Shown piece after piece: positions 6,343 through 35,462 of a stretch of DNA of 64,000 bases. Made by a program: the position numbers and the translations under genes. Source of the stretch: Bolinopsis microptera (lineage: Eukaryota; Ctenophora; Tentaculata; Lobata; Bolinopsidae); NCBI RefSeq assembly GCF_026151205.1, contig NC_087072.1, forward strand, positions 15,662,169 to 15,726,168, written 5' to 3'. The notes under the pieces are model-generated. The model was not told the origin of the DNA. It did not search any database and worked only from the letters and a program-made list of their open reading frames with translations. Positions within the stretch are counted from its first letter, which is position 1, and each line of letters starts with the position of its first letter.

Positions 6343-9300
6343 GGAGCAGCGAATGACGAGTTAGCTACCACCCTGTTCGAAATACTGCCAACTCAAAAGG
6401 GCAGCGAGGAGGATATAGTGACCCTGTTAACAACCGTGTGCACTAAACTGGGAAATGAAACACCCCTCACACCCACCGCGCTCCGGGCTATCGTGGACGT
6501 GATCCGGGAAACTAACAAAGAAACACACCGACACGCACTCCACCACGGCTGTATCGTTCTGCTGTCCAAACTCGCTGCTCACTTTCCTGTCCTGGTCCTG
6601 GATCATGTGATCGCTATCTTTACATTTATGGGTGACAGCACGATGCGAATGGATGACAACTATTCTATACAGGTAGGAGACTGGCGGCCTGTCTTTGATA
6701 AGTTAGTTTTGATTGTTGCTGTGGTGTGTAATGAAGGTTTTAATTATATTATCTTCTCAGTGAAATGACATTTTAAACGATGCCTACTTTAAAATATATA
6801 GTTCATCAACTGGGATAATTGACAATTAGTTACGCCTTGTAACACAATTGTAATAATAATATATCATAGTTTATAGCTTTTAAGCAGTCGCTGTGATTAA
6901 ACCAGAGAACTGCGAACTCTCTTTTTATCATCGTGTTCGGTCCATCGTTACAGTACTTTAAAAGTACTGAGTACAACGATACACTATTCATATTATTTAT
7001 TTATCAATCACTGATACATCAACCCTGTCAGGTTCTGATTGAAGCTATCGGCACTATAGTTCCGGTTATCAAACAGAAAAAGGACATGATGAGCATTTTG
7101 AGGGTGTTCTGTGACACGCTACCCCACATTCCCTCCCACCGGGCAGATCCTATTTTTACTCTTCTGCTGGAAACATCTGGTCCTCAATATCTGTATCACG
7201 TGTTTGTTTTCGTGTTGGAACTATGCAGCAGGTCAGTAATGATCCGTCGGATCATGAGCATGTGTTTTATATGTGCAGCTCCTGTTTATAATATCAAAAG
7301 AAACTCATAATCTCATAATGAGTTCAATGTATGTTAGTTAACAACATCATACTAACTGGCTAGTGTTCTGAAAATAGTTCAAGGACAGAGCTACCATCAC
7401 AGTTTTCTAAAATCCCTTCAGAATCTTACTGAATCTTTTTCAGGGACCGAGAGCTAGCATCCCAGTTTTCCTACTTCCTTCAGAACCTCACTATCCATTT
7501 CGGCCTATCTGATCTTTTAGGAACCTCTGTTGGACTCATTAAAACACTAGCAGCATTGCCGGATAAACTGACGAAAATGGTTTGCTGCATAAAATAAAAA
7601 CGTTTTGAGAATTGAGTAATTTCTAATTTAAAAGAAAGGTAAATCAACATTTTACGTCTATTGGGTATGCTTATTGCTTAACCGTATCGGATATCGGGAT
7701 TCTGATTTATCTTGATTTTCAGACTGGTAAGACACACAAAGTTCGCTTGGACAGTGGAGTTGATCTTAGCTTCAACGATACGAAGCATTATCATTACTTC
7801 AAACTTGGTCTGGCAACGCAACTTTACTTGCTCACCACCAACAAGCACTTCACCGGTAATGATATTCATAAAGCTCCCGATAAAAACATTTTGGGACATG
7901 TCCTAACTCTTAAGTCGCACAAAAAAAATTAATTCAGCATACGGTTAACCATTTATTAATAAATAATGATTTGTGAAAGCACTCGACGTATCACCGATTA
8001 GTAAAAAAGAAAGCTTATAATATAACAATACAAAAATGGTTTTTCATCAACGACGTTTATGAAGGAGCACTTAGCTAAAAAACACCTGTTACGTACAGTA
8101 GACCAATTGAACAAATCTTGAGTCCTTTAACTAGACATATTTCCAAATCATATGTCACACATTTACGTCGAACCATTTAATTGACATTTTAAATACTGGT
8201 GATGAACTCGACGGAGAGTAATGGAACTGAGATCTTGACTCCTGATGAGCCTGAAAAAATGATGGAGAGTCTATTCATGTACATTGCACCATTCAATCTA
8301 GTCTTGGCTGTCATTGTCCTCTTCCTTAACTCTACAATCCAAAGAGACTACTTTAGAGACAGAAAACTGCCTGCCACCTTTTTGTTCATGATCATAGCGG
8401 CTGCAGACATATTATTTGCCACTGCAGACATATACAGGAGCTCGACCGCATTAGTCTGCACGCAGCGTCATGATGCTTCGTTTCCAGCTTGGTTTACAAT
8501 GTCTTACGTCACTATAGGCTTCTGGGGTTACAACCTTTCAATATTTGCCAATGTAGTGCTTGTGGTTGTCAAGTCAGTAAATTTGTCAGCACCATTTTAT
8601 CAGCTGGAACAATGGACGATTGCCGTAGCTGTTGTAGTCGGCGGAATATTTTGGGCTTGTCTAAGCGTTACAGATGCAATATTTTTCGCAGGAAACAACA
8701 ATTTCACTTCCTTCGGCTGTAAGGAGCAATGGGAAATTTTGGAACACTACGATTTCGTTGGTACTGGAATAGCATCCGAATTTGACCCAGTTAATTCTCT
8801 CTTCATATCGAAAACGCTGGCTGTGGCTGAATATGTTTTTCCGAGTATCATAGTTTTAGTCTGCATGGTGATACAAATGGCTGCTATTAGGAAAACTCTG
8901 GGGTCCACGAGCAAGGAAATTGCCAATGAAGTTAATCTGACGGTGTTCTTAGTATCCGCTGTGTACTTCATATGCAACAGTGCTTACGGCATATTCTTCC
9001 TGACAGAGTACACCCTTCAAAGGAAAAACACATTGAGTATTGAATTCTTGATGAAACACACTCTACCCCTGTTAAACGCAGCTCTATTTCCAATCATTTT
9101 GATTTGTAGAAAAAAATCTCTGAGAACCCAGTATCTTGGTTATTGGGCTGCTGCCCTCGGCCTTCCAAAAAAGCTTCGCCGTGGAGCAGTGAAAAGGAGC
9201 AAAGATGGTCAGCAATACGATGCTGTGGCAAAGGTTGAGTCTGACTCTGATTAGGAAGACGTACCTAGCGACTGTAATATAGATTATAGAGCGTTTGACC

Positions 9301-12300: not shown

Positions 12301-15300
12301 CAGACGCGATGCTACTTTGAGTAGTACTCAGATGGTAGTTTACAATTAAGAGCAATGGATGCGAGTGAAACTTATTTACTAGTCTAGTCAAGTAGTCATG
12401 ATTTCCCGTGGCTCCTACCCTCAGAATAACAAATGTGTGGGACCGGGAAACTTTGGGTGCTTAGTCGACGTTCACCGGTCCCTGGTGGTCACAACAATGT
12501 AAGAAAAGCACCTGATTGTGTGACGAGGTCGAACGCATTAAAAACCGTCCCCTCTGCAGAGTAGGTAATTACTGATAAATACTGACCACCTGCGAAAAGA
12601 AGATCCAAATAAACGACTTATATAAACTTTTACCTATTTTGTAAAATGCAGATCCTAGTCGAGACAGGACCCGGATTCTAAGACATTAACCAAGTAAAAC
12701 GGCCAGCTGCAGTTGTCACATGTCAGCGTACGGTGCCAGCCGACGCTTCACGGCACAATTTAATAATCGCATACTCTAACGGTTCGAACGTGCATGCTTA
12801 CCCGGTCCTAATCTCTATGATCTCTATAATCTCTATTTGATAATTTAAGCAAAAATTACTGTTAATGATTTTATCTTATTGGAATTCATGGAGTGCTGCC
12901 AGCTGCTCAATCTGATTCGTGATTAGGCTGTAATTCTACAAGAGCGTCCATCAATATGAAGTCATCGATCTTTATTAAGGTCGTGGGTAGAACATGACAC
13001 ATGGCTGTTGAGATCGTTAAGAAATCGGGTAAAATTGCACGATCAAACACATTTTATTTCAAATGAAACCGCGATTATCCGCTTATTGTCTATTGATTCG
13101 TGTAGAAAAAACAAAACCCAATTCAAATTATGTTAAATGCGAACTGATTTAGATTCTAGCGAGTCGGAAATTTGGTTGGGATGATTACCGTGCTCCTGGT
13201 AACGTTTACAGATGCACATGGTAGATAGTCGGTATATGCATATGGTCGGTTAACTTTTGAAGGTCGACTTACTCACGTGCGGCTTGAAAATTCACATTTT
13301 AATAGACTAATATGTCACGTAGAGACCCAAAAATGTCATCCAAAAGAATTTATCAACTGAAACCAACTGAAGTATCCTTACAGGTTCCAAGTACCCTGAA
13401 GAGTTTGTTAAAGTGCTCGGCGCAGCTGCGACTCATCTTGGCAACAACCCAAGTGATGAGCTCCGGAAATGTATTTGCACGTGTTTGGAAGTGCTGAGTG
13501 TCCGGTGTGTCGCGCATTTGCCGGATCTTGTGAAGATCTCTATTGGGAATCTACAGGATAACAGTGCGGTTTTGTCGGCCGTCATTTCAACTGTTCCTCA
13601 GTTCACCTCTGCTTACATATCCGACATTCTTGTCGCTATGTCCAAGGTGAGTTTATCGTAAATATTACTCGGACAGTGTTCCAGCTTTGGTTGTTTATAT
13701 GTTTGAAACAATGATGTTCGCGAATTTTGGGATTTGATTTTTGCCTGAATTTTTAAAGTCACTGTTTATTATTTCAGGTTTACAGTGATAATTTATCAAA
13801 ACTGAGTGCTGAAATTGGGGGTGGAATTAAGTTAAGGGTCCTTCTTCCTGCTGTGATAAACGCAATCGACACACTACTCGACTCATCTGCTCATGGTGAA
13901 TATATTATGTTGAAATGATAAAACAATCCCAACAATATATGAAATATTTATCATTATATTATTATCAAAAGAGAAAAATATTATCATTCGAGAAGGATAC
14001 AAAACCTTGTTATATTCATTACTATTAGTTTATAGCTATACTAGGCCAGCGAATTAGCATAGACTGTTTAAATGGTTAATTATTAATTAATTATCATCAA
14101 TAATGATATTTGTTGGCTCTCCACCCATTTGGGCCTTGTCATGGCAAAAAAGGCGGGCTTTAATAATTTGATTGCCCATTTATCTCCTACATCCACGTAA
14201 TATAACTGTGGAATTGGATTAAACATAAGTATGAAGCTTATAAACATAGCCTATAAGCATAGTGGATGTCAAAACTAATTGTATAGGTTACCAGATTAGG
14301 CTACTCAATGCTTATCGAAATTGAAACGCCAAAAGAAATTATCAATTACTACGTATGATCAAAGGGGCGCACTAAAACATATTTAATTTTAATTGTCTGT
14401 AACATCAACTTCAGACCTGCGCGCAGTAACGGACACGCTGAGGAAGTGTATTGAGCAGAACGTGACTCATGACATCAAGAACCAAGTTACTGATATCAAC
14501 ACCATCTTCGTGAAGTTACTATCCTACAGGGATACAACCACCAGGTCAGTTAGGGGGAGTGAGAGTAGTTACTATCCTACAGGGATACAACCACCAGGTC
14601 AGTTAGGGGGAGTGAGAGTAGTTACTATCCTACAGAGATACAACCACCAGGTTAGTTAGGGGGAGTGAGAGTAGTTACTGTCCTACAGAGATACAACCAC
14701 CAGGTCAGTAAGGGGGAGTGAGAGTAGTTACTATCCTACAGAGATACAACCACCAGGTTAGTTAGGGGGAGTGAGAGTAGTTGCTATCCTACAGAGATAC
14801 AACCACCAGGTCAGTTAGGGTGAGTGAGAGTAGTTACTATCCTACAGGGATACAACCACCAGGTTAGTTAGGGGGAGTGAGAGTAGTTGCTATCCTACAG
14901 GGATACAACCACCAGGTCAGTAAGGGGGAGTGAGAGTAGTTACTATCCTACAGAGATACAACCACCAGGTTAGTTAGGGGGAGTGAGAGTAGTTGCTATC
15001 CTACAGGGATACAACCACCAGGTTAGTTAGGGGGAGTGAGAGTAGTTGCTATCCTACAGGGATACAACCACCAGGTTAGTTAGGGGGAGTGAGAGTAGTT
15101 ACTATCCTACAGAGATACAACCACCAGGTTAGTTAGGGGGAGTGAGAGTAGTTGCTATCCTACAGGGATACAACCACCAGGTCAGTTAGGGTGAGTGAGA
15201 GTAGTTACTATCCTACAGAGATACAACCACCAGGTCAGTTAGGGTGAGTGAGAGTAGTTACTATCCTACAGGGATACAACCACCAGGTTAGTTAGGGGGA

Positions 15301-18300
15301 TTGAGAGTAGTTACTATCCTACAGGGATACAACCACCAGGTCAGTAAGGGGGAGTGAGAGTAGTTACTATCCTACAGAGATACAACCACCAGGTTAGTTA
15401 GGGGGAGTGAGAGTAGTTGCTATCCTACAGGGATACAACCACCAGGTTAGTTAGGGTGAGTGAGAGTAGCTACTATCCTACAGGGATACAACCACCAGGT
15501 TAGTTAGGGGGAGTGAGAGTAGTTGCTATCCTACAGAGATACAACCACCAGGTCAGTTAGGGGGAGTAAGAGTAGTTGCTATCCTACAGGGATACAACCA
15601 CCAGGTCAGTAAGGGGGAGTGAGAGTAGTTACTATCCTACAGAGATACAACCACCAGGTTAGTTAGGGGGAGTGAGAGTAGTTGCTATCCTACAGAGATA
15701 CAACCACCAGGTTAGTTAGGGGGAGTGAGAGTAGTTACTATCCTACAGAGATACAACCACCAGGTCAGTAAGGGGGAGTGAGAGTAGTTACTATCCTACA
15801 GAGATACAACCACCAGGTTAGTTAGGGGGAGTGAGAGTAGTTGCTATCCTACAGGGATACAACCACCAGGTTAGTTAGGGTGAGTGAGAGTAGCTACTAT
15901 CCTACAGGGATACAACCACCAGGTTAGTTAGGGGGAGTGAGAGTAGTTGCTATCCTACAGAGATACAACCACCAGGTCAGTTAGGGGGAGTGAGAGTAGT
16001 TGCTATCCTACAGAGATACAACCACCAGGTCAGTAAGGGGGAGTGAGAGTAGTTACTATCCTACAGAGATACAACCACCAGGTTAGTTAGGGGGAGTGAG
16101 AGTAGTTACTATCCTACAGGGATACAACCACCAGGTCAGTAAGGGGGAGTGAGAGTAGTTACTATCCTACAGAGATACAACCACCAGGTTAGTTAGGGGG
16201 AGTGAGAGTAGTTGCTATCCTACAGAGATACAACCACCAGGTTAGTTAGGGGGAGTGAGAGTAGTTACTATCCTACAGAGATACAACCACCAGGTCAGTA
16301 AGGGGGAGTGAGAGTAGTTACTATCCTACAGAGATACAACCACCAGGTTAGTTAGGGGGAGTGAGAGTAGTTGCTATCCTACAGGGATACAACCACCAGG
16401 TTAGTTAGGGTGAGTGAGAGTAGCTACTATCCTACAGGGATACAACCACCAGGTTAGTTAGGGGGAGTGAGAGTAGTTGCTATCCTACAGAGATACAACC
16501 ACCAGGTCAGTTAGGGGGAGTGAGAGTAGTTGCTATCCTACAGAGATACAACCACCAGGTCAGTAAGGGGGAGTGAGAGTAGTTACTATCCTACAGAGAT
16601 ACAACCACCAGGTTAGTTAGGGGGAGTGAGAGTAGTTACTATCCTACAGGGATACAACCACCAGGTCAGTAAGGGGGAGTGAGAGTAGTTACTATCCTAC
16701 AGAGATACAACCACCAGGTTAGTTAGGGGGAGTGAGAGTAGTTGCTATCCTACAGGGATACAACCACCAGGTTAGTTAGGGTGAGTGAGAGTAGCTACTA
16801 TCCTACAGGGATACAACCACCAGGTTAGTTAGGGGGAGTGAGAGTAGTTGCTATCCTACAGAGATACAACCACCAGGTCAGTTAGGGGGAGTGAGAGTAG
16901 TTGCTATCCTACAGGGATACAACCACCAGGTCAGTAAGGGGGAGTGAGAGTAGTTACTATCCTACAGAGATACAACCACCAGGTTAGTTAGGGGGAGTGA
17001 GAGTAGTTGCTATCCTACAGAGATACAACCACCAGGTTAGTTAGGGGGAGTGAGAGTAGTTACTATCCTACAGAGATACTACCACCAGGTCAGTAAGGGG
17101 GAGTGAGAGTAGTTACTATCCTACAGAGATACAACCACCAGGTTAGTTAGGGGGAGTGAGAGTAGTTACTATCCTACAGAGATACAACCACCAGGTCAGT
17201 AAGGGGGAGTGAGAGTAGTTACTATCCTACAGAGATACAACCACCAGGTTAGTTAGGGGGAGTGAGAGTAGTTGCTATCCTACAGGGATACAACCACCAG
17301 GTTAGTTAGGGGGAGTGAGAGTAGTTACTATCCTACAGGGATACAACCACCAGGTCAGTTAGGGGGAGTGAGAGTAGTTACTATCCTACAGAGATACAAC
17401 CACCAGGTCAGTTAGGGGGAGTGAGAGTAGTTGTTAAAACACACCCCCTTCTTAAACATGATCAAACATTTTACCGAAAAAAATATTCATAATCGTTTTT
17501 TAAAAAGATGTATATCTTTAATGACGCCCCCCTTTCAGCTTCACTCAAGAAACGGAGGACGAGGTAATATCATGTTTTGTTGGGCTGGTGTACAAGCTAA
17601 CTGAGAAGGAGTTCCTTCCTCTGCTAGTGAGATTACTCGAGTGGTCTAACGGGTCTCTGGAGAGGAGCATTACTTTCTACAACCTTTCTGCTCATCTCTC
17701 AGATAAACTTCAGGTCGGTCAACTCTCCTCCATTACACCGTACACTATTAAATTGCTGTTATCCCGGGAATTTGTCTTAACTATCTTTCGACTTCTTAAT
17801 ATGACAGGCATTTTTTCGTAATACTTTGAATGTATGGAATCCTTGTGTTATTATAATACATGATAGGACGAGGAATGAGGATTCATACCTTTTTGACCTA
17901 CTGTATAGTAATAACATAGTAATACTGCATGTACTTTAATAACGTATTATTGACAGGGACTGTTTTTATTGTTTAGTGGTTCGATCTACCTCAATCTTGT
18001 GGAAAAGCTTCAACAATGCAAACCTCCTGTTCAAACCGAAGGTAAGATTAAGCATTTGAACATTCTCTGCATTTTTCGTTAATAATACAATTACGAAATC
18101 TTTGCTTATTGCTACTAAAACTAAAATAATAATTTATGAAGTCTAACATGAAAATAATCCCATCAATAACAATTATCACCTGTAGCTCAACACTCAACAG
18201 CAATAAATCAACAGCTACTACAAATTATAACATCACTATAAATTATATTAATATTAACTAAACTTGATTATCTTAATATTATTCTCCACTTGGGCCAAAG

Positions 18301-34970: not shown

Positions 34971-34990
34971 CGGAGATGAGAGTCCCGAGG

Positions 34991-35017
<27 letters not shown>

Positions 35018-35021
<4 letters not shown>

Positions 35022-35366
35022 GGAGGGAGGGAGGGAGGGAGGGAGGGAGGGAGGGAGGGAGGGAGGGAGGGAGGGAGGGAGGGAGGGAGGGAGGGAGGGA
35101 GGGAGGGAGGGAGGGAGGGAGGGAGGGAGGGAGGGAGGGAGGGAGGGAGGGAGGGAGGGAGGGAGGGAGGGAGGGAGGGAGGGAGGGAGGGAGGGAGGGA
35201 GGGAGGGAGGGAGGGAGGGAGGGAGGGAGGGAGGGAGGGAGGGAGGGAGGGAGGGAGGGAGGGAGGGAGGGAGGGAGGGAGGGAGGGAGGGAGGGAGGGA
35301 GGGAGGGAGGGAGGGAGGGAGGGAGGGAGGGAGGGAGGGAGGGAGGGAGGGAGGGAGGGAGGGAGG

Positions 35367-35372
<6 letters not shown>
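35018..35372 (+). repeat. (GGGA)n tetranucleotide tract, ~88 copies
   Basis: An uninterrupted GGGA run of ~355 bp, preceded by a short (GA) run at 34995-35017. Every 15 nt satisfies the G3N1G3N1G3N1G3 quadruplex pattern with single-nt loops; the complement is a pure polypyrimidine strand. The long reading frames across it in both directions (poly-GREG/poly-SLPP types) are artefacts of the repeat. Confidence 0.98.

Positions 35373-35462
<90 letters not shown>
35373..35462 (+). repeat. (GA)n dinucleotide tract, ~45 copies
   Basis: Pure GA repeat directly abutting the GGGA tract. Together with the left GA run it makes a GA/GGGA/GA sandwich, consistent with the tetranucleotide having expanded inside an ancestral GA microsatellite. 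Confidence 0.98.

Follow-up and report, generated by a model that had tools for sequence, protein, structure and literature searches.

What becomes of a gene when the end of one of its exons is repeated in tandem dozens of times together with the splice donor, and which of the donors is then chosen? The question is raised by a 64,000-nucleotide stretch of the genome of the ctenophore Bolinopsis microptera (NC_087072.1, positions 15,662,169 to 15,726,168; hereafter the window, numbered from its first nucleotide), where a 53-bp minisatellite lies at an exon-intron border of HEATR1/UTP10, a conserved ribosome-biogenesis gene that is essential in yeast. Tandem Repeats Finder reports a 53-bp period with 55.1 copies, 94% matches and 0% indels at window positions 14514-17432. 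A direct parse yields 55 complete units, spaced by exactly 53 bp in all 54 intervals and followed by a 5-nt remnant (AGTTG) that places the end of the array at 17433. Each unit is composed of 31 nt of exon end (AGTTACTATCCTACAG followed by GGATACAACCACCAG) and 22 nt of intron start, and CAG/GTYAGT (the slash marks the exon-intron border) is kept in 55 of 55 units, 24 of them with GTCAGT and 31 with GTTAGT. The locus is laid out as follows.

14514 to 17433, plus strand: 53-bp minisatellite, 55 complete units and the 5-nt remnant AGTTG (Tandem Repeats Finder and direct parse)
14514 to 14544, plus strand: exonic 31 nt of the unit in the functional copy 1, coding KLLSYRDTTT plus AG
14545 to 14566, plus strand: the 22 nt of unit 1 that belong to the intron; donor GTCAGT at 14545
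13384 to 13646, plus strand: HEATR1 exon (frame and homology)
13778 to 13895, plus strand: HEATR1 exon (frame and homology)
14415 to 14544, plus strand: HEATR1 exon whose 3′ end would have founded the array (frame and homology)
14545 to 17538, plus strand: predicted intron of 2,994 nt, or 132 nt with a single unit
17539 to 17713, plus strand: next HEATR1 exon, BP28CT region (frame and homology)
17957 to 18041, plus strand: following HEATR1 exon (frame and homology)

An earlier, sequence-only reading of the window had described a 55-fold amplification of an exon end together with its donor site, and the direct parse bears this out with all 55 donors intact. Its estimate of 15 coding nt per unit was too low, the exonic share being 31 nt, and the ‘tatcctacag’ that it took for preceding intron-like sequence is coding in copy 1 (K-LLSYR). 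The span that it gave, 14415-17713, does include the array but also covers the exon, the tail of the intron and the next exon. A purely intronic minisatellite is ruled out by the 31 coding nt inside each unit. So is a dispersed repeat or introner-like element, since a search of the genome (264.65 Mb) with window 14415-14600 returned at least 53 matches, 53 of 53 at the HEATR1 locus.

The gene is identified by homology as HEATR1/UTP10, in agreement with the sequence-only reading. Joined, the five exons listed above form one open frame of 256 residues whose product matches human HEATR1 (7mq8_LM; E=2.2e-14) and Pfam BP28CT (8e-21), the domain being spread over collinear exons. A longer concatenation of exons, 766 residues in a model that leaves out the N-terminal part, has both human HEATR1 (5.4e-47) and fungal UTP10 among its matches, and the whole genome contains one BP28CT match. 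For the array exon by itself (43 residues) the PDB gave no relative, so the identity rests on the joined exons. An open frame of 353 codons (window 8193-9251, plus strand) is located between HEATR1 exons; it is seven-transmembrane receptor-like by eye, with no Pfam match for the ORF at 8202-9248.

The explanation that probably accounts for the locus as a whole is the birth of an intronic minisatellite by tandem duplication across the HEATR1 exon-intron junction, with the first donor in use and the exonic copies kept silent through the copy at the functional edge. The founding segment would extend from an AGTT in the exon (14514) to an AGTT 22 nt inside the intron. This tetranucleotide is present at both ends of the segment and again after the last unit, which fits a founding duplication at a 4-base microhomology. 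An intron holding one unit would have measured 132 nt, within the 116-150 nt seen in 6 of 14 other modelled introns. Unequal exchange or slippage may then have expanded it to 55 copies, with blocks of about ten units contributing to the later growth. By picking the first donor (14545), the spliceosome would remove the whole array as a 2,994-nt intron, and the protein would therefore be unchanged. The locus most likely carries a passenger array that is lost with the intron when splicing starts from the first donor.

The reading frame bears directly on the choice of donor. Fifty-three leaves a remainder of two on division by three, and the downstream donors do not keep the frame, unlike those of the human 6-16 (IFI6) minisatellite, which reportedly keep it: donors 2 and 3 shift it, and 52 of the 54 downstream donors put an in-frame stop into the insert. 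Unspliced read-through accordingly meets a stop, as had been claimed from the sequence. A full-length protein can come only from donor 1 or from splicing in 15-nt micro-exons, and with frameshifts from donors 2 and 3 and stops from the rest, donor 1 should dominate. It is likely that donor 1 (14545) is used nearly always, because the downstream donors break the frame or introduce stops, because micro-exons would need introns of 38, 91 or 144 nt, set against 116 nt or more in those modelled, and because GTCAGT is used elsewhere (2 of 14 other modelled introns). RNA structure that hides the downstream donors was also considered and finds no support, since the fold of the segment 14484-14702 is less stable than those of shuffled versions (z +2.36; 200/200 shuffles at least as stable). 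With 55 near-identical donors, all but the first without a full-length protein, the locus constitutes an unusually clean test, within a natural gene, of how the first 5′ splice site is chosen; the sequence-only reading was fair in describing it as a possible test of the spliceosome's choice of the first donor.

Intron sizes were compared with 14 other modelled introns, six in HEATR1 (359, 212, 1266, 131, 519 and 243 nt) and eight in dynein heavy-chain genes (116, 401, 129, 136, 247, 260, 124 and 150 nt), which range from 116 to 1266 nt. The set excludes the array intron, doubtful introns of 155, 305, 1609 and 5841 nt, and of 169 and 357 nt, and lower-ranked alternatives. Scoring weights were taken from a generic consensus. 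The introns at 13896-14414 and 17714-17956 were placed by hand from the frames, weight scoring having ranked another candidate first for the former and none for the latter.

These sizes matter for the suggestion that the array generates isoforms. Here, ctacag acceptors and donors inside the array would splice in 15-nt micro-exons, giving a variable number of RDTTT repeats in a surface loop of HEATR1. The arithmetic behind this suggestion is correct, as inserts of 15 nt are in frame, open and code for RDTTT with one, two or three copies. Unit positions 9-16 (TCCTACAG) are invariant across the 55 copies, and a similar acceptor (TATCCTTACAG) belongs to the HEATR1 exon at 13384. Human HEATR1 carries four extra residues where the array exon meets the next exon in the alignment, so the junction falls in a length-variable stretch, a point that also accords with the duplication and first-donor explanation. 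However, splicing between adjacent units requires an intron of 38 nt, and skipping one unit gives 91 nt and skipping two 144 nt; with a minimum of 116 nt among the modelled introns (n=14), only jumps over at least two units reach the size range seen. The supposed acceptor is former exon, and a branch point is not clear by eye. Length-variable isoforms are therefore not supported, and they are unlikely.

The same donors might instead act as a dosage valve. Transcripts spliced from downstream donors, or keeping the array, would be degraded, and array length or donor strength would tune the output of HEATR1. Donors intact in 55/55 units, with every downstream donor leading to a frameshift (2/54) or a stop within the insert (52/54), are what such a valve would employ, but no sign of selection keeping the array was seen, and this role is improbable. 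Stepwise removal is less likely still. Donor 1 would be joined to a later CCACCAG/GTYAGT, restoring both junction and donor and leaving the mRNA unchanged, a possibility offered by the AG that directly precedes GT in each unit; by eye, however, CAACCACCAG lacks a pyrimidine tract.

Variation among the units is confined to 10 of the 53 positions, five exonic (3, 5, 8, 17 and 23) and five intronic (34, 38, 43, 46 and 48). All five exonic sites are synonymous in the HEATR1 frame (TTA/CTA, TTA/TTG, CTA/CTG, AGG/AGA and ACA/ACT), including the g/a variant that had correctly been said to still code for Arg, whereas in the other two frames 0/5 and 1/5 are silent. Under random placement, the chance of five silent sites out of five is P=0.0006 with the base changes fixed and P=0.002 for four transitions and one transversion at random sites, in a test that is post hoc and has n=5 sites. 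The simpler reading of these variants is that the functional edge copy served as the source of units or undergoes conversion with them. Exonic variation would then be silent because the variants are shared with a copy that is under coding selection, either having been copied from it or being able to convert back into it. Selection on 15-nt micro-exons could account for the silence of sites 17 and 23, both within the 15 nt, but leaves that of sites 3, 5 and 8 unexplained. Silent-only variation suggests that arrays of this kind may preserve a record of the changes that selection tolerated at the edge of an exon.

The order of the units carries further information. There are 20 unit types, and type identity peaks at a lag of 10 units (14/45 pairs), with 9/30 at lag 25. 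All four combinations are present at the site pairs 5/17, 5/34 and 17/34, and units therefore exchange sequence or mutate recurrently. The copy number comes from one assembly, and assemblies may shorten or lengthen tandem arrays; the 20 unit types, which follow one another non-periodically and form partial blocks, unlike a simple assembler expansion, and a contig of 26.2 Mb make an artefact in copy number a very slim prospect. Some observations do weigh against duplication at the border followed by use of the first donor and silence through the edge copy. Silence at five sites, judged after the fact, could be due to chance. The clearest recent growth, seen as repeated 10-unit blocks, begins about 16 units from the functional edge, which means that any copying from there took place earlier or is infrequent. 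Lastly, GTTAGT is found in 31/55 copies, yet T at position +3 occurs in 1/14 of the other modelled introns.

Whether HEATR1 is alone in this respect was addressed in a 314-kb sample made up of the window and 25 stretches of 10 kb, two of which adjoin the window. The sample contains 16 arrays with units of 20-120 bp and at least three copies, and three of the 16, HEATR1 included, are splice-junction arrays; the surroundings of five further arrays revealed no recognisable splice junction, bringing the arrays inspected to 8/16. In the first of the other two (C1:907,032-907,353; L011:7032-7353), a 49/50-bp unit comprises a 3′ splice site together with the first 14 nt or more of the exon, and its last copy continues into that exon, a mirror image of the HEATR1 case. 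Joined by hand to a downstream piece, the product of this exon has a Dynein_C match at 3.3e-06, scoring 27.0 bits where the cut-off is 25.7, and by itself the exon aligns with the end of a 4730-residue PDB chain (0.0075), which by homology identifies it as a dynein heavy-chain C-terminal exon. The second mirror case (C1:12,109,619-12,118,138; L027:9619 to L041:1038) consists of about 155 copies of a 55-bp unit that includes a 3′ splice site (136 motif matches in L027, L035 and L040 together and 19 in L041), and the last copy ends at an open exon (L041:1039-1183). For the product of that exon, the RasGEF match stays below the cut-off (0.021, or 0.046 with an upstream piece), and the PDB gives no match. 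The array shares only GTT with its exon, which may be chance, and AG is lost in at least one copy.

Some further features were noted in passing. Another array, with a unit of about 50 bp, is located in the intron after the RasGEF-like exon. DHC_N2 matches at C3:8,952,495-8,953,706 and C1:6,101,794-6,103,008 lie in open frames of 3,357 and 3,703 codons; these would be two dynein heavy-chain genes with few introns in a genome that also has many intron-rich ones. The window itself also contains a GAGG tetranucleotide tract of 118.8 copies (34987-35461, Tandem Repeats Finder).

Across the whole genome, tandem motifs were counted as three motif copies at steps of 35-65 bp, a measure dominated by long arrays. 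The donor motif CAGGTNAGT gives 2,460 such triples (1267+1193) against 44 (4+40) for the reversed motif, whose triples fall in five arrays; single copies number 11,625 and 6,961, respectively. Triples are similarly skewed for AAGGTNAGT (2,348 against 72 reversed), CAGGTRAGT (765 against 4), CAGGTTAGT (1,154 against 36) and the acceptor-like TTTCAGG (1,649 against 311). A scrambled motif gives 70 and its reverse 172, and six control motifs range from 14 to 557, compared with the 2,460 of CAGGTNAGT and the 2,348 of AAGGTNAGT. Counted as arrays from the matches listed, CAGGTNAGT accounts for 10 over the initial 15.68 Mb of contig C1, against five for the reversed motif genome-wide, a rate ratio of 20 when corrected for single copies (P=7e-8) and of 18 without HEATR1, the only motif-found array checked for a neighbouring exon. 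Within those 15.68 Mb alone, the comparison is 10 to 1 (P=0.04). Three donor-array units inspected on C1 measure 44, about 55 and 31 bp and are unlike each other and the HEATR1 unit. On C3, CAGGTRAGT recurs about every 46 bp over some 4.6 kb (5,823,835-5,828,486).

Other counts speak against a bias of minisatellites towards splice junctions. The control CAGCTNAGT, in which the GT is destroyed, still gives 557 triples, with 14 for its reverse, and it makes four arrays in the same 15.68 Mb of C1. The donor-specific excess then amounts to 10 arrays against 4 (P=0.09, uncorrected for single copies). Among the matches listed, the C1 arrays comprise at least eight of CAGGTTAGT (up to 26.0 Mb), which has T at +3, and three of CAGGTRAGT, although +3 T is found in 1/14 modelled introns. 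Since the GT-destroyed control is also raised, a genome-wide splice-junction bias is a lead and not a result. A recurrent class of minisatellites, seeded at 5′ and 3′ splice junctions by a mutational process tied to the border, with arrays recording past states of the exon edge as silent variants, is conceivable but tentative. If junction arrays were indeed common in this genome, that would tie the birth of minisatellites to gene structure, and many intermediate steps in the growth or gain of introns would be on offer there.

The HEATR1 array is real and confined to one locus, and it represents an extreme form of a known kind. A search of open-licence literature found, among the papers listed, neither this array nor a genome-wide class of splice-junction minisatellites. 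The closest precedent is the minisatellite of human 6-16 (IFI6), whose unit is reportedly about 12 bp long and adds residues in frame. The HEATR1 array differs from this in its 53-bp unit, a length that three does not divide, and in downstream donors that yield no full-length protein. The 6-16 minisatellite supplies multiple splice donors (Turri, Cuin and Porter, NAR 1995, as cited in PMC4526556), and two downstream repeat units serve as donors, giving rise to three mRNA species, as reported in PMC4526556. Both systems place repeated donors of a minisatellite at an exon-intron border, and the HEATR1 unit holds the exon end with its 5′ splice site and directly adjoins a genuine exon; several donors of 6-16 are used in mRNA, whereas in HEATR1 the first donor is the one predicted to be used.

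Border-spanning duplication has also been implicated in intron gain. The potato RdRp gene gained an intron through tandem duplication across an intron-exon border, and in fission-yeast genes a 24-bp AGGT segment is repeated, with introns across two or four copies (PMC4974935, which cites the latter case). As in potato RdRp, a segment spanning the border is repeated in tandem at HEATR1 and each copy keeps its splice signals; in contrast to the few copies and the new intron described for the potato gene (PMC4974935), HEATR1 has 55 copies, and the 38-nt spacing between them is below all 14 other modelled introns. In human segmental-duplication genes, internal tandem repeats at exon-intron boundaries alter gene structure and splicing, according to PMC2812944, and the HEATR1 units likewise lie at such a boundary. 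The human repeats average four units of 30 bp in recent paralogues (PMC2812944), while HEATR1 carries 55 units in a gene with the single BP28CT match of its genome.

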